Assembly (NCBI GenBank): GCA_964036295.1
Contig: OZ038473.1
Coordinates: 5,053,501 to 5,117,500, forward strand
Origin: Plumapathes pennacea
Lineage: Eukaryota > Cnidaria > Anthozoa > Antipatharia > Myriopathidae
Direction: 5' to 3'
Length of the DNA: 64,000 nt
Both the position numbers and the translations under genes were made by a program. The number at the start of each line of letters is the position of its first letter. Within the stretch, counting starts at the first letter, position 1. Under the pieces are notes generated by a model. The model did no database searches and was not told the origin of the DNA. It was given only the letters and a program-made list of their open reading frames with translations. Shown here piece by piece: positions 21,964-64,000 of this stretch.

Positions 21964-22925
21964 AAAATCTTGAGATTTTATGGACAGAATTTGTTCTTGG
22001 AAAATTCAAAATCATTTGCGGAGTTTGTTACAGACCACCAAATTCCTCCGCTGCTCAAGTCGCTGACTTTTTTGACTCACTACAAGACAGTTCAGACAAA
22101 ATTAATACCATGAACTATGCAGCTGTCATTCTGCTTGGTGATTTGAATGCCCATTATAATTTCGTCGAGACTACTTCACGTAATACGGACGTGGGGATCA
22201 AACTTTATCACTTTCTGGAGTGTAACAACCTCTTTCAAATAATCGACGAACCGACCCAAATTACGTCCTCAAGTGAATCTATTCTTGATTTGATTATATC
22301 AGATTCCCCAGGTCTTTTTACTCATTCTGGTACCTTTAGTCCCCCTGCCAACTGTGATCACAATTTGATTTTTGCTAATCTAAACTTCCCCGTTAAGAAG
22401 CAACACGCGTACAGAAGACATATATGGAATTTTAACGGCGTTGAAGTGGATGTGTTAAATGACACCTTTGCTACTGCTGAATGGGGCAGCATACTCTCAA
22501 GCTCTAGATCTGAATTGAATATTGACACTATTTATGAACAATGGTTTTCGTTGTTCTATAGAATTGTTAGTTTTCATATTCCACATAAGAGTGTTGTTGT
22601 ATGCACGCGTGACAAGCTGTGGATGAACAGCACAATTAGGTGCGCAATGAGAAAACGTGATCGCCTTCTGAAAGCTTTTTCTAGATCAAAATTGGCATCT
22701 CGCTGGAACAAATACCGTCGGCAGCGTAATTTGGTTGTACATTTAATTCGTATAGCAAAATCCGCTCATGCAAAGAAGATAAACGATCTTTTGTCTGATC
22801 CCAGCACATCTTCGATAAGGTGGTGGCGAATAACTAAATCTTTATATGGCGACAAATTATGTTCTTCTATTCCTCCGCTGAAAGTGAACAGCGATATCAT
22901 TACTGACTCTAAGAAAAAAAGCTGA
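21964..22925 (+). pseudogene. LINE endonuclease C-terminal half
   Basis: The frame reads FKIICGVCYRPPNSS, then VILLGDLNAHYN and PANCDHNLIFANL. These are the late motifs of an APE-type endonuclease (YRPP, GDxN, and the SDH-type catalytic His, here CDH). A linker with Arg/Lys-rich helices leads toward RT. The N-terminal half with the first catalytic residues is missing. The frame is lost at an A-run near 22912-22918. APE-type enzymes nick target DNA to prime reverse transcription. Confidence 0.8.
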
Positions 22926-23922
22926 AGTCTTCAATGAATATTTTGTTGCTCAGACTTTTCTCCCGGGATCCAACTCAATTGATACTCCCAATCTTCCTTG
23001 CCCTTTCCCTAACTATACCCTTGGAAGCGTAAGGGTATCGCAAAACGAGGTTCTTAATATTTTAAACAACCTAAACACTGCAAAAGCGAGTGGACATGAT
23101 GGTATTAGCAACAGAATCCTTAAAATGTGTGGCCCCGATATTTGTTCTTCTCTTTCACGGTTAATGAATTTATCTTTGTCTTCTGGTCAATATCCCAACT
23201 CTTGGAAAATGGCTAATGTTCTGCCTTTATTCAAAAAGGATGACCGACAAGTCACTTCTAACTACCGTCCGGTCTCTCTCTTACCTTGCATATCTAAAAT
23301 TTGTGACAAACTTGCTTTTATTCGACTGTATAATTTTCTTAATGAGGTTGGATTCTTTTACCACCTTCAATCTGGTTTTCAACCAGGTGATTCAACGGTC
23401 ATGCAATTGATCTACATTGTTGATAAAATTGTAAATGCATTAGAAAGAGGAAAAGAAGTTAGAGCTGTGTTTTTGGACATATCCAAAGCTTTCGACAGGG
23501 TTTGGCATAAGGGATTGTTGGCAAAACTTAGACAACTAGGGATTACAGGAAACTTATATAATTGGTTTAGAAGTTATCTACTAGGGCGTTCACAAAGAGT
23601 TGTAGTGGATGGTCTAAATTCTGAGTGGCGTGAAATTCAAGCAGGTGTTCCACAAGGTTCTGTGCTTGGGCCACTGCTTTTCCTGATTTATATAAACGAT
23701 ATAACTTCTGGCATTGCCTCAAACTGTTTTCTTTTTGCTGACGATTCTTTTCTGTTGAAAGAAGTATCTTCACCTGAACTATCTGCTGAGAAACTCAATA
23801 ATGACTTGCAAGCCATTTCTGATTGGTCGGATCACTGGTTAGTGACCCTAAATGCCTCCAAAACAAAAACTATGACATTTTCTTCCAAACGTATAAAACC
23901 CGTACATCCTTCTCTGTATCTT
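22926..23922 (+). pseudogene. LINE reverse transcriptase
   Basis: In a new frame from the A-run shift, the sequence reads KASGHDGISNRILKMC, WKMANVLPLFKKDD, NYRPVSLLPCISKI, VFLDISKAFDRVWHKG (first catalytic Asp), GVPQGSVLGPLLFLIYIND and CFLFADDSFLLKE (the catalytic FADD box). It ends where the 3.2-kb insertion starts at 23923; the last codons up to the apparent stop at 23937 come from the inserted element. Confidence 0.9.
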
Positions 23923-23939
23923 CCCTTAACAAAATGAAC

Positions 23940-28894: not shown

Positions 28895-29337
28895 CTAGGT
28901 ATGGCTGGATATATAGTTGTACGCTAACCCTAACTCCAGGCATTGCTTGAAAAAGTTAATTCCATAGTTCTCATCGTTCTGCAATAGACTTGGCATTTGG
29001 GTTAACTGTTCATCTGACAACTCTATTGATGGAGGGATAACATAAACCTGGTAATCTTGCTCTTCAACTGGCAGTACAACCTCTGGATCCACACCAAATT
29101 CATCAATTTCTGCTGTTGACAGTACAGTGTTTCCAGAATGCATGTTCTCTAACATTCCCCTTTCCCACAGTTGTACGGGTGACTGGTTCCTTTCACTTGA
29201 AACTGGGTGATTGTTCATTTGTTGGATAAACACTTCCAATGATCTATTTATCCTGGGAAGGTACACATAGTGAAGACTGTACAAATGAACATCATCCAAT
29301 ATGTCAAGAATGCCATCATCTTCCATTGCCTCAAAAA
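28895..29337 (-). pseudogene. integrase-core transposase, C-terminal fragment
   Basis: The minus strand encodes MEDDGILDILDDVHLYSLHY, then YLPRINRSLEVFIQQMNNHP and NQSPVQLWERGMLENM, followed by an acidic tail and a stop at 28895. This is the end of the eukaryotic 'integrase core domain' transposase family often annotated in cnidarian and fish genomes (family named from memory). The catalytic core is not visible upstream. A frame at 29248-29529 overlaps the junction and may hold a remnant of an earlier exon, but I cannot recognise it. With the HECT fragment at 28319-28562 it makes a convergent pair. Confidence 0.7.
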
Positions 29338-29649
29338 TGCGTGATCTCGGATAACAACGGTGCGATTAGTTCTGCTCGCCACTACCAGGAACCGTCGTAC
29401 AAAAGTACCCGTACTGGAAGTAGGAACGCCTCTTGGAGCTACTGGATTAGCTTGTGCAGTCGAAGAAGTAACTATGTCAGTAATTCGGTTGATTTCCTCT
29501 ACGGCATTTGCTGCTCTCGAATTTGCCATTGAACAGATTCATCCTTGTTCAAAATGACCACCAAAGAGCATGTGCTCGAACCAGTCTCCCTCTGAAACAA
29601 GTTCGCAAGGCATTATAGGTCCAAAAAATAATTCTGTAATCGGAAAAAA

Positions 29650-34439: not shown

Positions 34440-35271
34440 GACTGAGTTGAACGGAAGATGTGCCCTTGGTTAATCTTATCATAGATGTCACAGCTTCTCA
34501 AGAACCTTGAATCATGAGTAGACCCAGGAGCACCAACTGCAGCCCACATAAATCGCTTGTTTGAACCAATGAAACCCATGTTAGATACAGAGTACCTCTT
34601 CTTAAGCTAAAATAGTTCTTCAACTTTGTACAGACATACACATGAAATCCATCCCACGCCCCTACACATGGAAACTCCCAGTTTTCAAGGAAACTTTCAA
34701 GTTCCTTCTTCCACTCATCACCATTTACTGGAAGGTAAACATGTCTGTTGTAAAGAACTGATACAATTTCTCTGTATACTTCATTGAAAATGACACTTCC
34801 AGTCGATTCAGTGACGCCAAACAGGTCGCCTACTGTCAAGTAGGTACAACCGTGGGCCAATCGGTAGAGACAAATGGCTAGCCGCGTGTCAGGTGGTATC
34901 GGTTCTGGCTTGAAACGGGTTGCCTCTTTCACAATGTTTCCCCTAATCTGGTCTAAAATAAACTCAAAGGTTTCTCAGCTCACTCTTAGTCGCTTCTTAA
35001 AAGCTTCTTCATCCCAGCTGCGATATCCTTCTCTCCACCATGATATGTCTCTTACTTTATCTTGGCCTCGCTCTTTTCGTGGTCGCTTGCTTGATACATG
35101 TAAAATCACAGAACTCACAGTCAACACTTCAGCTAGGTCTACATCTTCCTCCATGTCGCGCTGAAACTTCTTCCGTGACCAATCACAGTGCCTTTTGTAC
35201 TGCATAAATATATTTTCTTCTTCTCTTTGACGCTTAGCGAATATTCTAGAAAACATGATGAAGTCAGCCAT
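34440..35271 (-). pseudogene. PIF/Harbinger transposase, truncated
   Basis: From the minus-strand ATG at 35271 the protein starts MADFIMFSRIFAKRQREEEN, continues with DISWWREGYRSWDEEAF, meets a stop near 34975, and goes on with RLAICLYRLAHGCTYLTVGDLFGVTESTG, the helix-turn-helix region before the DDE core. WEFPCVGAWDGFHVYV holds the first catalytic Asp (GAWDG). After a frameshift near 34590 the frame for GST-HDSRFLRSCDIYDKI follows and ends near 34440 before the rest of the catalytic core. The accessory Myb-like protein of Harbinger elements is not seen. Confidence 0.85.
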
Positions 35272-36989: not shown

Positions 36990-37197
36990 ATTTTGCGCTA
37001 AAGATATTACATTTTGCATCAAAAAGTTATTAGATTTTGCGTTAAAACGTTTATTACATTTTGCGTCAAAATGTTATTACATTTTGCGTTAAAAGATTTA
37101 TTACATTTTGCGTCATATTACAATTTGCGTTAGTATTACATTTTGGGGCGATTGTTATTACATTTTGCGTTGATTATTACATTTTGCGGCGTAACAA
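36985..37197. repeat. degenerate array of TTATTACATTTTGCG
   Basis: About ten copies of the 15-bp word TTATTACATTTTGCG are spaced by 1-10 bp. The last copies overlap the end of the Harbinger coding frame, where the minus strand reads ...TPQN and then the array. Confidence 0.9.
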
Positions 37198-37791
37198 GGG
37201 GCATCCAGTGACCTTTGATTTTAACGGGTATTTGGCAGCCATCAATGGCTCCCATGACGCCAGGAAACCCCTCATTTCTTCAAATTTATCCCTTACTTCA
37301 CGTGCGCGTTGGCCACATGGAAATTTGATGATATGTCCGGACAAATGAAGTGCAATGGCCTTGCAAATTCTTCGGTAGATGCGATATGCATTCGACCTCG
37401 TAACGTCGAATCGATCAGCAACGGACCGAAGGCATTCGGGATTGCCCAGAACCCATAATGAAAGCAGAATCTGCTTTTGCAGCAGAACAGGTGGTCTCCC
37501 GCTGTGTGTCTGATGCTGTGGAATTTCTGGAAAGACACCAAGCAAACCATGCAAAAACTCCACCGTACCTCTTGACATGCGAAAGTGGCTCCGGAAATCC
37601 GATGCACTGTACATCGGAACGATTCTCTCGAAATACTCGCCAACACGCACTTGCTCTCTGTACGGCCTTTGTGCACCATCAGCAAGTAAAGCAAATAAGA
37701 TTTCCTCACCGGCTTCTTCACAGGCTATTTGTTTCTCGACATCGTCTTCGCATAATTTGTCAAGAATGAAAAATAACGCTGCCCTTTCCAC
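37177..37791 (-). pseudogene. second PIF/Harbinger (HARBI1-like) transposase, truncated
   Basis: From the ATG at 37791 the minus strand gives a helical N-terminus, FRSHFRMSRGTVEFLHGLLG, ILLSLWVLGNPECLRSVADRFDVTRSNAYR (the helix-turn-helix region) and FEEMRG. A 1-bp loss in a G-run near 37275 shifts the frame; the other frame then reads GFPGVMGAIDGCQIPVKI, with the first catalytic Asp in GAIDG, and HWMPLVTPQN, after which the TTACATTTTGCG array begins. The remaining two catalytic acids are missing. It differs strongly from the Harbinger copy at 34.4-35.3 kb, so it is another family. Confidence 0.85.
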
Positions 37792-38070
37792 AAGTCGAAT
37801 TTATTCAGGGATATAGAAGCAATACAAAAATACCTGTGTAACAGACGAATCATTTTTGTTATTTCGTAATTATGAATCACACGTTTTAGTACTGGCAAAT
37901 AAATCGCTTCTTGGTAAAACAAAAGCAGCAGAGTTTTACAATTTTCCCTTCGATACTCCCTGACAGCTAAATAAATGCAATGCACGCCTACAAGTCTAAA
38001 TTGCTGTAAATCGAATTTTCACTGGGTGCAATTTTGTTCAAAAAGTGCTGTCCACTTAAGCTATAATATC
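37792..38070. other. no gene seen
   Basis: Non-coding flank between the Harbinger fragment and the hAT-like element. Confidence 0.3.
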
Positions 38071-55625: not shown

Positions 55626-56033
55626 TTTTCAGCACTTCGTGCTGAACGCAAGCTTAAAAACGTTCCAGAAGTGTGAAGTGAAAGTAGCCCACATTGAGCC
55701 CATGCTGAAGGCAACAATTACAACACTAAGGAAGCTTCGAAAAGAAAAGGGACCACATCTCAAGAGAGTTGACGAAGTCCTTCAAGTTGACCTTCGTATA
55801 CACAAGATTCCTATCAACGATACAGACAAGGCAAACTTCTACAAGCTTTGAGACAAGTTCCTTGCTTCAGTAATCGCAACCTCGAGGCCAGATTTCCAGA
55901 CAGCGAAGTAATTTCTGCTCTCTCCATGTTAGATCCGACCAAAATGCCTGCAGAATTCATTTTCTATGGGAAAGAGGAAATCGAGACCCTCTGGAACCAC
56001 TTCGAGCTGAACACAGATCTCATGAACGAGTAG

Positions 56034-56365
56034 TCACAATTCAGAGATAGAACTGAGTAAAGGATGCTACAGCTTCAATTGCAAAATAAAAGACAGAGTT
56101 TTAAATAAACATTTTCAACAAAAAAATGTACGTAGTGGTAAACTCATAAGAGCCGCAGTTACCTTAGCACTCTAACCCCCACCTTCAAAATATGTAGACC
56201 CTTTGCCTTGACCATGTTATCGGTACACAATTCCAGTGAAGCCAGGAGGTTATCAAAACCTGCAAAATACAGTAACTTCCAAGTTCTTCCATGGCAGCCA
56301 TGTTGAAAAAGTCATTTTGGAATTGAACCTGGGAACGAGGTTGTGTCAAACTGTTTTTCTCTTTG
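56034..56365. other. no gene seen
   Basis: AT-rich 3' flank of the hAT-type gene. Confidence 0.3.
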
Positions 56366-56690
56366 GCAAGAAATGTTCAAATTCACTAGGTGAGAAATAT
56401 TCAAACTCCCTAGCGAGAATTTTTTTTAACTCGCTAGCGAGAAATGTTCAAACTTGCTAGCGAGAAATGTTCAAACTTGCTAGCAAGAAATGTCCGAACT
56501 CGCTAGCAAGAAATGTCCAAACTTGCTAGCGAAATGTCCAAACTCGCTAGCAAGAAATGTCCAAACTCACCAGCGAGAAATGTCCAAACTCGCAAGCAAG
56601 AAATGTTCAAACTTGCTAGAGAGAAATGTTCAAACTCAGTAGCGAGAAATCAAAACTCGCTAGCAAGAAACTGGACCACACGCTCAAGCA
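56366..56690. repeat. 22-23-bp tandem repeat (GCTAGCGAGAAATGTTCAAACT)
   Basis: About 14 imperfect units of CTAGCGAGAAATGTTCAAACTYG, with C/T and G/A variation (GTTC or GTCC, AGCGAG or AGCAAG). The GCTAGC at unit joints is palindromic. There are no unique spacers. Confidence 0.9.
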
Positions 56691-57549
56691 TTTGAACATG
56701 GTTTATTTAAAGCTTAGTATTTTGAAGAGCACTTCAACTCCTGTGAATTCTGATTACTTTTGGCAGTAACAGCTTTCCATAACCTGAGGCAGTTTCCAAT
56801 TTGTCAACACCATGGCTCTTGTTGCTTCGACCATTTTAGGCAATAAATAAATTAACTTTTAAGCTGTAAATGTAGGAAAGCAAAACATTAAGCTTAGCCT
56901 TACAAAGGTTCGTATCTGTAATTGTAAATTAAGCTTGTGCTTAGTTCAAAATTGATTTCAAGGACAAAGAATGCAGTGATATACAGTTATTCCCATTCAG
57001 TTTACATGGTTTATTAGCCCTGAAGAGTATGATACAAGTGCAAACATGATCTCAAGAAAATTGCAGGTAAAGCTACGTATCCAAGCATTTCAGGTATGTC
57101 AGAAAACTAGATGTAATGTAATGTTTCACTCAGGTGTTTAAAATGTAACTAAATAAGCAGTAGTTAAAGTGTATTTTGCCAAATGTAAAGCAAACTAGTC
57201 TAAAGCTATCCCTTAAGAACAAGAAAGATGGTGAGCCAGATGGTGAGCTAAAACAAAGAGACCATATGGTAAACATGATACTGAGGCTGTGGACACTAAA
57301 TACTGGCTTACTTGAACTGAAACTAAAACTAAACTGCTGACCATTTAAAATAATCGCAGGCACACCAAAACACACTAGAGACAGGAAAAAAAAAACAAAC
57401 AGTTCCGGCAAGTTGGCAACACAGTTCATTGTATATTGTATTTCTTTTAGCCACAATTCTACTGATTGAAGTGAATCCCCATTCATCTCGAGCGGCTTTA
57501 GAAATTGGAAAAAAGCACTTGGCAAGAAAGATTGTTATCTTGACGGGCA
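56691..57549. other. no gene seen
   Basis: Non-coding AT-rich DNA. A minus-strand frame at 57130-57525 shows no known domain. Confidence 0.3.
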
Positions 57550-58021
57550 TGTGCAAAGTAAAGAACACAAAATTGCAGAGCAAAAGATGACCAACTTCCC
57601 AAAGACACGCTGCCCAGGCAACAACATCAGCACAAGACTGCAGAGACAGGTAGCCAAGCAACAGTGTCACACAATGACAGAGGGGCATTCCGTTTACACT
57701 GCAGAGGTAACTGGGACACCTTTCAACAAAATGAAGTTTGGAATTTCGCCTTCTTCGTGGACTGGAAATCAAAGTACTGTATGATCCAGAACTCAAAGAC
57801 CATTTGGACTATACTTCTCCCATGACTCAGAACAAGATAATAAATTTGTGTGATGATGTCATTAGAAAGCATATCTAAGCATCCATGCTGAAGTATTGGA
57901 GAGTGTAATGGCCGACAAAACTCAAGATTGTTCTACAGCTGAGCAACTCAGTATTTTTGTACACTATGTCAACAGCGAAAACGAAGTTCGTGAAGAATTC
58001 TTTGAATATTGTGAAGCTTGA
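57550..58021 (+). pseudogene. second hAT-type (ZMYM1-like, DUF4371) fragment
   Basis: In several frames the plus strand reads STRLQRQVAKQQ, then TSPMTQNKIINLCDDVIRKHI, and VMADKTQDCSTAEQLSIFVH, ending with YVNSENEVREEFFEYCEA and a stop. The M-A-D-K/E-T-x-D string holds the first catalytic Asp region of the DUF4371 hAT fold (ADET in relatives; here ADKT). The C-terminal half is missing. It belongs to a different subfamily from the hAT gene at 53-56 kb. Confidence 0.7.
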
Positions 58022-58039
58022 AAAAATGAGATCTTGTAC

Positions 58040-58105
58040 ATAGGATCCTACGGGATCTTTTGTAAGATCCTATACTATCCTATACTATCCTATACTAGAA
58101 ATACG
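58040..58105. repeat. short CCTATACTAT tandem and GGATCCTACGGGATC foldback
   Basis: Three to four CCTATACTAT units follow a small AGGATCCTACGGGATCTTTTGTAAGATCCT-type inverted structure (arms of 8-9 bp). Confidence 0.6.
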
Positions 58106-58296
58106 ATAATCGCATATACCCCCTCACTCTGCCATTGATGGGACTTTTACTTTTGGTAACTCCCAATAAGAGTAGCCTTTGTTTTACCGAAATGTTGACT
58201 CAATCTTTTCTTCGAACTCAAGTGCTACACGCAAAGGAAGGAGAAAAAGAATGGTGTGTGTTATACTTTTGCGTTGAAAAAAGAATCGATTGCGTA

Positions 58297-58506
58297 CGGT
58301 GGCCCAGAAGGCTCAACACAAAAAAAAAATACAACGCAAATTAAAAGAGCACAACACAAATAAAAACATCACAACGCAAATAAAATATTAAAAAATTGCA
58401 CAAAAAAAAAAACGCAGCTCTAATAAAAAAAAGTCGCAAAGCAAACAAAAAAGTCGCAACACAAACAAAAAAAGTCGCAACACAACGACAGAGGGACTGG
58501 GCTCGA
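58297..58506 (+). repeat. left terminal inverted repeat (about 210 bp)
   Basis: Starts CGGTGGCCCAGAAGG and ends ...GGGACTGGGCTCGA. The middle holds A-rich repeats: ACAACGCAAATAAAA near the tip, then GTCGCAAAGCAAACAAAAAA and GTCGCAACACAAAC. Against the right arm it has small indels in A-runs and one rearranged middle segment. Confidence 0.95.
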
Positions 58507-58596
58507 GTTATCTCTGACCAAGTTGACTGAAGGCTCTGTAAGATTTTCGCGCGAAAACAGATCATATTCCAGTGTGAGAAACACTACCTAACTGCC

Positions 58597-61500
58597 ATGT
58601 TTTGTTCACGCTGTGGGAAGGAGGTGACTCAAGATGCGAAATTTTGCTGCAATTGTGGAACGTCCGTTTCGATTGCACCATCTGCCATTCAACCAACACC
58701 AACCTGTGGAATAGAAGAGTTTAAAAAGAGGAAAGAGGCTGAAAGACGCTCAAAATTCCAGCCCAAATCCAAGCGAGGTAAAACTGGTAACAAAATGGAA
58801 AAACCGGTTCCACCAAAACATGTCGCTATAAATATTGGCTTCATGAAGTATACCAATGGGTATTTGAAGAAATGCCGCGGTAAAACTCTTCCGATCAGAG
58901 TTCCTCCATCGGCGAATGCTGCTATGGTAAAGGAAAGCTGTGCGCAAGCACGCAAATCATGATAAATCTGTCCTCAATGGAGTCGACTATGCACTACTTT
59001 ACCCCGATGGCAGCCAGGTTGTCTTCCTGCCAGGATCGTTTGATCCATTTATCCTAGAAAAATACAGAGACGACCTCGGAAGGAATTACAGCCGAATAAC
59101 GCTGTTCATTGCCCTAAAAGATGACTATCTCGCAGCGGAAATGGAAGAATTTGAAGGCTCCAAGGACGAAAAGAACGGCGATACCGGCGATGAGAGCGAG
59201 TTCGAAAAGAGTGTCTTTGACGACTGCACAGACATCAGTCACAAGTTGGACGGTACCCCAAAGCATGCCGTGATAGATATAACTGGAGATCAACCTGGGC
59301 CATCTAGTGATAATGGAGTAGACTCCATGGCAGAATGTCCAACCTGCTTCGGGCAATTTCCAATCAAGATAATAGCTGACCACGCAGACTCATGCTGCGA
59401 TGTATGGGTTGGAGAAATAGAGGAAACAGAGACAGATTATGATTTCTGCCCGCCTCAGGTTAATACGGTGGCTGCTTTAGAAGACGTAAACCTGAAAGGT
59501 GTCATTGAAAGCTTGGTGCAGTTCGTCCCGGAAGCGAAGCAGGTGAATCTGCGCGTCCGCCGGAAGGACTTATGGGCAGACGTGAAAAAGGTCCATGAAA
59601 GAGGAAAGCTGTCCCCAGGTCACCCTTTGAAAATACAGTTCATTGGAGAGCCAGCAGTGGATGATGGGGGTCCCCTTCGCGAGTTTTTTTCAGGTAAATT
59701 AAATATGGGATAGTGCCTAGTAACTTTTGCATACATCATAGACTGAAATATGTACTTACAACTGACTTTCTAATTTTATTTTGCTGAAAACATGAGATAT
59801 GCTGAGGTAGAACAATTGAATGTCACTACCAACCATAAGTTATTGCCTCGCATTAGCTCTCTATACCTTTTACTAATTAATAATATTAATCAATTCCTTT
59901 TTTTTTCAGAAATACTGGCAATCATAGAGAGGAAGCTTTTCATATCTGGAAAGCCTATCACATCGACCATCTCTCTTAGCAGCAATGATTTTTACTTGGC
60001 TGGATTGCTGATGATTACATCAGTTCTACAAGGTGGGACAGCACCATCCTTTTTAGACCCAGGTGTGTATCGGTACTTGACAAACCAGCCACTGTCTCCA
60101 GAAGACAATGATGCAAAGTACAAAGATGCTGCCAAGAAGGTATCTACTACAGCAGTTTTCAAATGATTATAAAAAATAAACAGTGAAAACTAAATTAACA
60201 ATCACTTACAATCAGCATTAAGTTACAATTTGGCTCCCAGTCAGCCAATCTCCAAGCATCATACTTAGTCAGTTCACATAGACAGTACACTATTCTTTAA
60301 TATGAAACCAAATGAGTATAATTAGCAGTATAGTGAAATCTATTTACGTACAATATTTTCGTTTATATATTGATTTTTGTTCCCTTAAGATTCAGTCAGT
60401 AACCATTGTAAAGGATCTACAAGATGTCCTTCTGCAGGATGATGTTTTTGAAGTCCTTGAAGAGATTGGGTATGCTGGGGTACCCAGCAGAGAAACTCTC
60501 ATTTCCTCATCAGATATCATACAGTGAGTATGACACATTTTACTTTATTGTGACAGTGAAATATCAATACCTACACTCCACTGTTCATGAATCTGCTTCA
60601 GTAACAGAGGGAACTGGCTTGGCTTTACTACAGGGTCTTGATGGATGGGGCACACATAACTTAAGTTAGAGGTCATTTGATTTAGAGCCTGTTCTTAGTT
60701 TGAGCACATGTTTTAAAACAAATGCTCCTTACTAATGCATAGCACACTACATGGAGTTAAGTACTTTTGTCAAACATAATTATCCAATTGCAGATCAATT
60801 TGCATCAAGAGCCAGATGTGCTCCTTCCTACCCCAACTGATGCAGTTAGAACAAGGCCTCAGCAGCTGTGGTGTCCTAGCATCTGCAAAGAAGTATCCTA
60901 AACTGTGGGAACCTGTTTTCACTTCAGGTTGTGTTGCATGCACACCCACAGCTGAAGACTTTCTGAATGATCTCATTGTTGATTTTAGCCTCTCCCAAAT
61001 CAGAAAGGAGAAGGAGATTGATGTGTACAAGCTATTTTGTGACTTTGTGGAGTCTTTAGAGGAAGAAGGTATCTTTATTATCCATTATTGATTATCCTTC
61101 TTGGTAACAAAAGAAAAAATATTTGAAACTGCTGTAATCCCGTACACGTGCCTTTTTCTAAAACTGCTAGACCAGAAAGTGTAGCAACAAAGAACTTGAA
61201 GAATGTAAAGATTACTGCCAGAGCTGGAAATTGCAAAAACATGGTCATCAATATTAAGGAAATGTGGAGTTTGCAAAATTTTTGGATAGTACAAGAGAAT
61301 ACAATCCTACCTTGCACCTGCAGGAGAGTGGAACTAAATTTAGTGTTTTAATAACATTTATTAATACGAACGGTAACATGTTGATATTACCAATATAAAC
61401 ATTATTTATTTTTATTAGGTTCAGGTGATATCACTATTGGTGACCTGATGAAATGGCTGTCAGGCTCTGGAACAGTTCCTGTGCTTGGATTCCAGAAGAA

Positions 61501-61669
61501 GTTTTCTATTTCTTTTGTACATGGTTGTAGAGATGCTTGCAGGTGCCTGCCTACTGCTTCAACATGTGATCTGTTGCTAAAGTTGCCAGTGCACATCAAC
61601 AACTTGCAGGAAATGGACACTATCATGACCTCTGCACTGAAAGACTGCACTGGTTTTGGCTTTGTGTAA
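58597..61669 (+). CDS. transposon-borne HECT E3 ubiquitin ligase, five exons
   Basis: Exons: 58597-59693, 59910-60139, 60390-60523, 60794-61068, 61419-61669; all four introns have GT...AG ends and joining keeps the frame. About 660 residues. Order: an N-terminal zinc ribbon (CSRCGKEV...CCNCGTS); a conserved-looking region KPVPPKHVAINIGFMKYTNG; an acidic linker; a C-x2-C...H-x3-C finger (CPTCFGQFPIKIIADHADSC, about 59330-59395) like ubiquitin-binding UBZ4 fingers; then HECT, from LKIQFIGEPAVDDGGPLREF to the catalytic CLPTASTCDLLLKLP, where T-C supplies the thioester Cys. HECT enzymes take ubiquitin from E2 onto Cys and pass it to substrate. One defect: a 1-bp frameshift near 58936. G2E3-like HECT genes are the closest kind I know. 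Its role for the element is unknown. Confidence 0.85.
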
Positions 61670-61808
61670 TGTGTATTTTATCTGGGAAACACAAAACCTC
61701 TTTGCTTGCTATTGTTACGAGATATTGCCCATGTCACCATTTCATTTTTGCACTTTCAAATTAGAAGCTGACATATGTGATTTTTTGTTGCCCTGGTTTA
61801 TGGTAAAA

Positions 61809-63282
61809 TTATCTGTTTGCAATGTCAATTAATCTCAGAAATAAACTATATGCTTCATCAGTACTCTTTGGGTATTGGAAATTATCATTTTCCATAACAT
61901 AATGGAAATATTCCTGATACAAGTTCAGTTCACATTCGTGACTGTCAAGTTCATCCAAATGAAGTTCCATTTCACGCACTGTGTCTGCTGGTACAGGCAC
62001 CATACAATCAGAGCTTCCAGAGCGTTGTGGTAGATAGTACAGGACTTCGGGTACACCAGGAACAGTGCCATGTCTGGATGGGCGAATTCTGTGGGTATTC
62101 CAGTGTTTCTTCACATTATCCAGATCCTCTTGCAACACACCATTATAGCAAAACCATAAACACTCTGTGTGTAACTGACTTCCTAAGTCTAATATTCCAC
62201 TTTCAACCATACCCTTAAATAGATCTATCCACCAGGAAGACCTGCCTCTTCTTAGGAAGGACCACCAACACTCAATTCTCTGGTTGCTTGGAGATGTGCC
62301 ATACCTATGTGATTTTTCTCCAGCAAATTGATCACTTCCATGTTGCCTGAAATATGTTTGCATTGCAGCCATTGTTCCATTTTCTGTCCCACAGTCAGTT
62401 CTTACAAGTATTGGGCAACCAGAGTTTTCTGAGACACAGTCCAGAAAAAAACTTGCAATAGCTTCTGGTTTGTTGTTGGATCTAGCAACTTCTAGCCAGA
62501 GAATTTTTCGGCTGTACCCATCTATGGCTCCATGTATGGGGAAGCCAAATGGTTTCAATTTGTCGTACCCTAAAAGAGTCAATATAAATTAATGTGAAAC
62601 TATTTGTATTAATGCATCAGTTTTCAAGCTGTTCAAACAGTGGAAATAATTTTATAAGCCAATACCTTGACAATGATACATCTCTTAAAATGTATATTTT
62701 AAATGATTGACCAAACTAGGAGCATAATAAATTCCCTATCAAAACATAATTAGTACGTAGTCAGTTAGGAGAATTTTGATGATAGGGAGCAACAGAACAG
62801 CTATTTTAGTTGAGTTTTGATTCCTATCGAATTGCGTAAGTTAAGCAACTGAAATGTTTAAAAAGCTCACCGTCAACATGCCAGCAGAAGTTGGGACCAT
62901 AACTCAAGTATCGCCGTCTTGCCAATCTCCTGCTTCTTCTTTGCTGACTATTTGCAGGGTCCAGTTCTCGTACAAGCTCAGCAACCCGCTGCCTCGGAAC
63001 GTGAATGTGATGATTTAATCGTAGTGAGTGCCAAACAGCCCTATATCCACGAAGCTCACCAGGCCCCGAAATTTCTTGACGAACGATGTCCTTGAGTTTT
63101 TCTTCATCTATTTCAACACCTCTCCTTCGTAAGCCGTAGTCTCTTAACCTTCGCTTAAGAGTGGCTAAACTAATAACAATCTCGTGTCGATGTTCTAAGA
63201 AGTCGAGAATTACTTTGTTTTCAAACCCTTGATGAAAGTAATGTTCTAGAATGCTTCTCAGCTCATCACGATCGTCTGCCAT
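61809..63282 (-). CDS. integrase-like DD40E transposase, two exons
   Basis: Exon 1 is 63282-62871 and exon 2 is 62569-61809; the 301-bp intron has GT at 62870 and AG at 62570. The joined frame is 390 residues without a break. The N-terminus holds a helix-turn-helix-like segment (HRHEIVISLATLKRRLRDYG) and RGYRAVWHSLRLNHHIHVPR, as in IS3/retroviral-type integrases. The core gives FCWHVDG (Asp at 62872-62874, just before the splice), VRTDCGTENG (Asp at 62394-62396) and NQRIECWW (Glu at 62271-62273), with 40 residues between the last two. FGFPIHGAIDGYSRKILWL lies between. It should cut and join the element ends. The ATG at 63282 is 45 bp inside the right inverted repeat. All three acids are present, so it may be active. 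Confidence 0.88.
62570..62870 (-). other. intron in the transposase gene
   Basis: On the minus strand GACG/GTGAGC and TTTTAG/GGTACG join to code D-G-Y-D in frame, directly after the first catalytic Asp. Neither exon alone can form the active site. Confidence 0.85.
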
Positions 63283-63327
63283 CGGAAAATGGCGGGAGAG
63301 ACAGCGCGGTTACCATTCGGGGGATAT

Positions 63328-63539
63328 TCGAGCCCAGTCCCTTTGTCGTTGTGTTGCGACTTTTTTGTTTGCTTTGCGACTTTTTTTTAATTAGCGTTGC
63401 GACTTTTTTGTTTGCTTTGCGACTTTTTCTTATTTGCGTTGTAATGTTTTTATTTGCGTTGTGATGTTTTTATTTGTGTTGTGATTCTTTTTATTTGCGG
63501 TGTATTTTTTTTTTGTGTGTTGAGCCTTCTGGGCCACCG
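63328..63539 (-). repeat. right terminal inverted repeat (about 212 bp)
   Basis: The inverse of 58297-58506, ending CCTTCTGGGCCACCG. It holds four to five TTTTTTGTTTGCTTTGCGAC-type units and several TTTATTTGCGTTGTGATG units. TA follows directly. Confidence 0.95.
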
Positions 63540-64000
63540 TAATTGCGTGACGAAGTACATATTTCCCACGGTCGGCACGTCAAATTAATTCATACAGTCT
63601 GCCAAGCACGTTCTCGAAATTTAATACTCAAAGTTTGAAGTTGGTCGGCCGTCGTAGTACGGGAAAAAAGGAACACTGATTTTCTAATTTCGAATTCATA
63701 GGCAGCACAATAATAGGCTTCCTGTGCAATTTGTTTTTACTACTGCATGCACCAGACTCAGGCATGCATATTTAATAGGCTCGAATTGTTTTGTATTTGA
63801 ACCCACTCAAAACAGCAAAATTTCTCCCAGAATCAAAGCAAAACTTGAACAGTTTACTTCAAATTATACACGGGCTTCAGACCCAGTAATACTTCTAAGG
63901 GCTTGTGAACGATTTTCGCTGCAATCACCGCGTGTCAGATTACAGAAAAATAAGACATCTGACTAAATTATTCAAGACTCCAAGTTCCGATTGCTCTGAG
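63540..64000. other. flank of the transposon; no gene seen
   Basis: TA (63540-63541) then non-coding DNA. A frame at 63724-63966 is short and unrecognised. Confidence 0.35.

Follow-up and report, generated by a model that had tools for sequence, protein, structure and literature searches.

The stretch of DNA analyzed here (the window, 64,000 nucleotides of Plumapathes pennacea contig OZ038473.1) holds, at positions 58295-63541, a DNA transposon of 5,247 bp that carries a HECT ubiquitin ligase gene beside the gene of an integrase-like transposase. With a probability of roughly 0.8, it represents an IS3EU-type cut-and-paste transposon in which the HECT gene is a selected, long-standing element gene, whose product would act in trans as a helper in transposition. 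The recurrence of the gene pair, its arrangement, the co-divergence of the two genes and the constraint between families mark the HECT gene, at the sequence level, as a selected gene of the element and not as a captured passenger, and the recurrence of the pair in like arrangement suggests that the element makes use of the ligase.

Boundaries of the element and assignment to IS3EU

The element starts with TACGG and stops with CCGTA, and the 6-bp target duplication ATTGCG lies directly outside both ends (58289-58294 on the left and 63542-63547 on the right). The terminal inverted repeats at 58295-58506 (+ strand, with subterminal repeats about 20 bp apart) and 63328-63541 (- strand) are about 212 bp long and 84-85% identical to each other, with TACGGTGGCCCAGAAGG and its complement as the outermost letters. 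A reading made earlier from the letters of the window (the sequence-only reading) had described 210-bp inverted repeats, in good agreement with this, and had placed a TA on both sides of them. TA was rejected as the target duplication: the element itself begins and ends with it, and 6-bp duplications were found outside it in the window family and in a third family described below. When the 64-kb window was scanned with an end filter (TAYGG..CCRTA, an exact 6-bp repeat outside and both ends alike), the element at 58295-63541 was the sole structure to pass.

The element fits the known IS3EU superfamily, because its ends, its duplication and its rva_4 integrase-like DD40E transposase match those of the superfamily; this placement in a known superfamily is a correction to the sequence-only reading. 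TA..TA ends (TAYGG..CCRTA), which define IS3EU in the passages on it in PMC10045372 and PMC12730594, are present, and so is an integrase-like DDD/E core (PF24764; D137, D196 and E237). The first D falls within residues 100-300 of the 390-aa transposase with a single Cys before D137, and HHCC is lacking. In Ginger1 the HHCC motif precedes the core, according to the part of PMC10045372 that treats it, and the window transposase has no such motif ahead of its core. Exact 6-bp duplications flank the window copy and its duplicate, L023, L042, L029, L035 and 6/6 elements of the third family, the exceptions being L022 with 7 bp and L036 without an exact 6-bp match.

Two convergent genes fill the element

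The HECT gene occupies 58597-61669 on the + strand in five exons with GT..AG introns. Exon 1 (58597-59693) encodes a zinc-ribbon-like start, a conserved N-terminal domain, a UBZ-like finger and the beginning of HECT; it is followed by exons 2 (59910-60139), 3 (60390-60523) and 4 (60794-61068), and exon 5 (61419-61669) provides PTASTC, the catalytic motif, as well as the stop codon. The transposase gene runs from 63282 to 61809 on the - strand and encodes 390 aa in two exons, again with a GT..AG intron. Its exon 1 (62871-63282) covers the N-terminal part through D137 with a sub-threshold HTH_21 match, and exon 2 (61809-62569) covers the rva_4 integrase core after D137, including D196 and E237. 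The two convergent genes described from the letters were thus recovered, together with their introns. The DD40E triad was likewise confirmed, as the transposase scored 110.5 bits against rva_4 (PF24764, cut-off 26) and D137, D196 and E237 are spaced by 58 and 40.

The HECT assignment held as well. The intact copy L021 scored 39.7 bits against PF00632 (cut-off 23.9) in its C-terminal part, and the residues at the catalytic site are CLPTASTC in the window, as had been noticed earlier, and CRPTASTC in the 3 other near-full-length copies, with the catalytic T-C conserved in 8/8 homologues checked. A profile of 24 homologues spanned the whole HECT of WWP1, Rsp5, HUWE1 and E6AP (best E 1.9e-15). These comparisons identify the second gene as a genuine HECT gene with a complete domain and the catalytic Cys kept, and ligase activity is predicted for its product. 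G2E3 proper carries PHD/RING-type fingers before HECT; no Pfam match to such fingers was obtained in the 662-aa protein, which on this point is not a G2E3 proper. The zinc-ribbon-like start gave a match just below the cut-off, and the finger ahead of HECT matched the UBZ structures of WRNIP1 and RAD18 weakly (E 0.0044 and 0.0046, respectively). The homologue P0001 matched TIGR00599 rad18 with an E of 0.0005, far under the cut-off.

Copies of the element and their empty sites

The host assembly (290 Mb, 24 contigs) contains 4 near-full-length copies, 99.1-99.9% identical, and both genes are present in 4/4. The HECT protein is predicted as 662 aa, stop-free, in L021 and as 660 aa in L022; the gene is frameshifted in exon 1 in the window, near 58.93 kb, which the sequence-only reading had missed, and also in exon 1 of L023. 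The transposase frame is open in the window, L022 and L023 and broken in L021, so that HECT is open in 2/4 copies, the transposase in 3/4 and both in 1/4.

The window copy and L021 have common flanks and the same duplication, within a block that spans 8.18 kb or more and is 99.8% identical, and for this reason were counted as one insertion. On contig C12, this block (window 55822-64000; L021:1-8177) is present in two places separated by about 0.5 Mb, and it reaches the edge of the window; it is either a single insertion that was later copied by segmental duplication or a pair of alleles misplaced in the assembly. The window family thus comprises 3 independent insertions, with the duplications ATTGCG, CGTTCC (L023) and the 7-bp TCGCTCA (L022).

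The sequence-only reading had proposed a search for empty sites, and counterparts with one duplication were found for L023 and L022. L023 is located inside a dispersed repeat, and its joined flanks, retaining one duplication, were matched over bases 1-400 or 4-400 at 92-96% by 15 of the 19 listed places; the remaining 4 were the two halves of the insertion itself and two shorter matches crossing the junction. For L022, 6 of 41 places matched nearly the whole join at 81-82% and 32 shorter ones crossed the junction, the other 3 being its own two halves and one match to one side only. Read from match extents over joined flanks rather than from base-by-base junctions, 2 of the 3 insertions of the window family have empty-site counterparts.

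The pattern of the first end gave 52 matches in the genome and 0 in the control, many of them short copies without the gene pair, and two short copies, of 1,261 and 1,553 bp, have clean 6-bp duplications. The sequence-only reading had named a general lack of the HECT gene in other copies with matching ends as refuting it, and this check came out largely for the reading: the near-full-length copies carry the pair, while the short copies lack it and no HECT was found in a 3.5-kb element of the third family. Between matching ends at C5:16061483-16063154 (1,672 bp), only the N-terminal domain of the HECT gene was found; this stretch is a deletion derivative that keeps the non-catalytic part and could act as a decoy.

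The same gene pair in divergent families

On contig C7, an element of 6,329 bp (10364135-10370463) has TACGGTGGCCC ends as in the window family, the duplication GGATGG on both sides and a convergent HECT and transposase pair, with 55% transposase identity. A third family, to which L043 belongs, has ends reading TACGGAGCCGTGGAAGGGCCATG, which were located via a repeat in L024 and gave 23 matches in the genome and 0 in the reversed control. Six end-to-end elements of this family were recovered, two of which share flanks, and HECT and transposase are convergent in 5/6; one paired element (C6, 8,995 bp) is considered rearranged because its two gene matches overlap. Altogether, 10 elements with both ends, a duplication and both genes were found, amounting to about 8 independent insertions (two pairs share flanks). 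L041 and L044, in which one element end each was located and the second end was not found, were not counted as complete. The presence of both genes in 4/4 copies of the window family, in the C7 family and in 5/6 third-family elements bears out the earlier proposal of the ligase as a second element gene. A truncated fifth copy at L024:6039 stops at the third-family end sequence (TATGGAGC...), a breakpoint that reflects either a nested insertion or a rearrangement.

The most distant families differ strongly in the ligase, the HECT part of the window type and that of the L043 type being only about 19% identical. This distance would be expected if several separate HECT genes had been captured into the same kind of element, an account that we regard as rather unlikely. 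The gene order is identical in all families, and the domain before HECT is common to the two most distant ones, although weakly (probability 47%, E 0.0002); the shared N-terminal domain favors one ancestral gene.

HECT genes and transposases are paired across the host genome

The C-terminal part of the window-type HECT gave 23 matches in 16 loci, of which 13 adjoin a transposase and 2 lie within about 3.2 kb of an element end. HECT genes of this type at conserved host loci without the ends would have counted against the earlier reading, and this check, too, came out largely in favor of it, with 1 of the 16 having neither transposase nor end. When all PF00632 matches were set against the transposase lists (59 HECT loci and 152 transposase loci), 30/59 HECT loci lay at most 2 kb from a transposase, and 30/30 were convergent. 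Chance adjacency was rejected: 1000 random placements, run with assumed sizes for C5, C9 and smaller contigs, produced 0.39 pairs on average and never more than 3.

After the L043-type HECT matches were added, 40/77 HECT loci were paired (37 without 3 transposase loci that had been added by hand because they were already paired), 40/40 of them convergent, and 2 further convergent pairs were found at 5.3 and 6.5 kb. Seen from the transposase side, a convergent HECT was present within 7 kb at 14/17 loci scoring at least 200 bits, 21/29 at least 100 bits and 32/55 at least 60 bits. The remaining 37/77 HECT loci are not near a transposase, and many of them are presumably ordinary host genes. The idea that element copies explain the expansion of such HECT genes is thus upheld for about half of the HECT loci (40/77), and within the host genome only.

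Co-divergence, constraint and the standing of the HECT gene

Nine loci with both genes readable (the window, L041, L042, L043 and L046-L050) were used for the analysis of co-divergence; L021-L023 were omitted as near-copies, L024 and L044 as decayed. Pairwise HECT and transposase identities were correlated (r 0.84, p about 0.0003), and HECT identity was lower than transposase identity in 36/36 pairs. Faster divergence of HECT is expected of a host-facing protein and is not proof of one. In the comparison of the window family with L041, dN/dS over 208 codons of HECT was 0.17 and over 342 codons of the transposase 0.08, and HECT looks to be under constraint between families.

Several observations weigh against the view of the HECT gene as a selected helper gene of the element. 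The between-family dS underlying the above ratios is saturated (1.7 for HECT and 2.3 for the transposase), the comparison between the decayed copies L042 and L044 gave dN/dS values of 0.63 and 0.75 that indicate drift, and the young family has no synonymous excess, synonymous changes being about as frequent as others and changes too few overall. Removal of the deep clade lowered the correlation to r 0.64 (p 0.036), L049 is placed differently in the HECT and transposase trees, and fast HECT divergence is equally compatible with looser constraint. The UBZ and zinc-ribbon matches are weak. As for the pairing, no HECT was found within 7 kb at 3/17 transposase loci of at least 200 bits, 8/29 of at least 100 bits and 23/55 of at least 60 bits, some of them fragments; the sixth third-family element, of 3.5 kb, has transposase pieces in which no HECT was found; and some rva_4 loci with the longest frames also show no HECT. 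Six related transposase loci share 30-31% identity, and the majority of them have long frames (C2:10882374, C3:10597886, C7:6077349, C8:4917248, C10:10750771 and C11:6605727); no HECT was found within 7 kb of these six, and they perhaps form a lineage with another second gene or none.

Because such HECT-less transposase groups exist, the pairing is common and not universal: the ligase belongs to the standard gene content of these elements, and some related transposase groups are without it. The dN/dS values are read as constraint while a lineage is mobile, probably followed by drift once a copy is dead. Chance capture of a host HECT gene, which would then hitch-hike as a passenger, is very improbable. 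Gene capture by transposons does occur, and many of the unpaired HECT loci are presumably host genes; against this stand the convergent order in every close pair, its maintenance in families as far apart as those above, the co-divergence, the between-family constraint and the apparent occurrence of the pair in Priapulus.

Relatives in other species and known systems

The best full-length HECT homologue, P0001, is 44% identical. In Priapulus caudatus, a HECT protein (LOC106815163, 49%) and an integrase (LOC106815162, 69%) appear to be neighbors, as both are on a contig of 106,852 bases; adjacency of P0009 and P0095 was likewise deduced from the longest contig they share (1,436,629 bases). Octocoral and stony-coral proteins homologous to the HECT of the element were found, some of them named G2/M phase-specific E3 ligase-like. 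Relatives of the transposase number at least 1200, and those designated P0041, P0051, P0063, P0111 and P0135 have at their start a zinc ribbon that resembles the one in the ligase, possibly a docking module shared with it. In IMG/VR, 14 pattern matches were obtained, none of which was confirmed by tblastn.

IS3EU/GingerRoot elements (Repbase 2013; PMC10045372) resemble the window element in their TA..TA ends, 6-bp duplications and a DDE transposase without HHCC, and differ in that no ligase gene is mentioned in the passages of that paper describing them. The fungal TET+ IS3EU elements share the TAYGG..CCRTA ends, the 6-bp duplications and an oppositely oriented second gene, which in the sections describing them is an alpha-kinase gene, with a TET/JBP dioxygenase in between (PMC12730594); the words ubiquitin and HECT do not occur in the main text of that paper. 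Styx of Zymoseptoria has an IS3EU-like transposase, but also four genes (GATA, CCHC and DUF3577 domains), with no ligase named in the part describing them, and in the legend of Figure 8 its supposed ancestor is an IS3EU coding for two proteins (PMC10853768). Quite possibly, a HECT ligase is the second protein of the animal IS3EU elements already known. Helitrons with VTD or OTU deubiquitinases are likewise mobile elements with a ubiquitin-system enzyme of their own, although, as portrayed in the relevant passages of PMC9741609, ubiquitin is removed there by a domain of the RepHel protein, and the elements are rolling-circle ones. Coral G2E3-like genes such as Acropora millepora P0151 encode a homologous HECT (35% identity over half of the query part) but are annotated as host genes; they were compared by sequence alone. 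A limited literature search, outside which Repbase and the GingerRoot paper lay, turned up no publication describing a DNA transposon that carries a HECT gene.

Further mobile-element remains were found elsewhere in the window. A piece of a second, different rva_4 integrase (PF24764, 77.7 bits) lies at 28898-29365 (-), where no match to the window-type transposase or HECT profiles was detected, and the remains at 22888-23937 (+), 34498-34974 (-) and 37177-37800 (-) consist of a PF00078 reverse transcriptase and two HTH_Tnp_4 matches below threshold.

A putative role of the ligase in transposition

The two genes point inward from the two ends, and the transposase, an integrase-like DDE enzyme, would cut and join the element ends and thereby give rise to the 6-bp duplication. 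The predicted ligase may serve as a trans-acting nuclear helper: recruited by its N-terminal zinc modules, either to the transposition complex or to chromatin marked with ubiquitin, it would tag a protein standing in the way there. Host proteins that silence or block transposition are tentatively ranked first as its target, because the ligase changes faster than the transposase and because viruses use ubiquitin ligases against host blocking proteins.

As a second choice, and a somewhat unlikely one, the ligase would tag its own transposase or the complex of transposase and DNA ends, either to keep copy number low or to remove the complex once joining is done, so that host repair closes the gaps, as ClpX clears the Mu transposase complex. 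The two genes travel and diverge together as such partners might, and the zinc ribbon on some relatives' transposases could be a docking part shared with the ligase; the window transposase, however, has no zinc ribbon, and the faster divergence of HECT is less expected with a slowly changing transposase as partner. The UBZ-like finger led us to consider that the ligase acts where the integration gap is repaired or where forks stall: the finger would read ubiquitin on PCNA or histones while HECT extends or adds marks. The matches to RAD18 and WRNIP1 UBZ structures, and that of P0001 to rad18, point in this direction; with finger matches this weak, and UBZ fingers being found in many contexts, we consider this third choice improbable.

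Significance

Elements with enzymes that remove ubiquitin or methyl marks were known before; here, an enzyme that adds ubiquitin would be carried and kept. The element would also provide a natural setting for asking whether host proteins that can be tagged away limit transposition, or whether active removal of the transposase is needed. At somewhat less than even odds, the HECT gene is the ancestral second gene of an animal IS3EU lineage ranging from cnidarian-like to priapulid hosts, disarming host defenses or clearing the complex, and a main source of the multicopy G2E3-like HECT genes of animals; if so, no earlier E3 ligase would be known that a DNA transposon carries and maintains to serve its own movement. 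A caution for annotation is that G2E3-like HECT genes may in many cases belong to transposons, as at 40/77 HECT loci found in the host genome.

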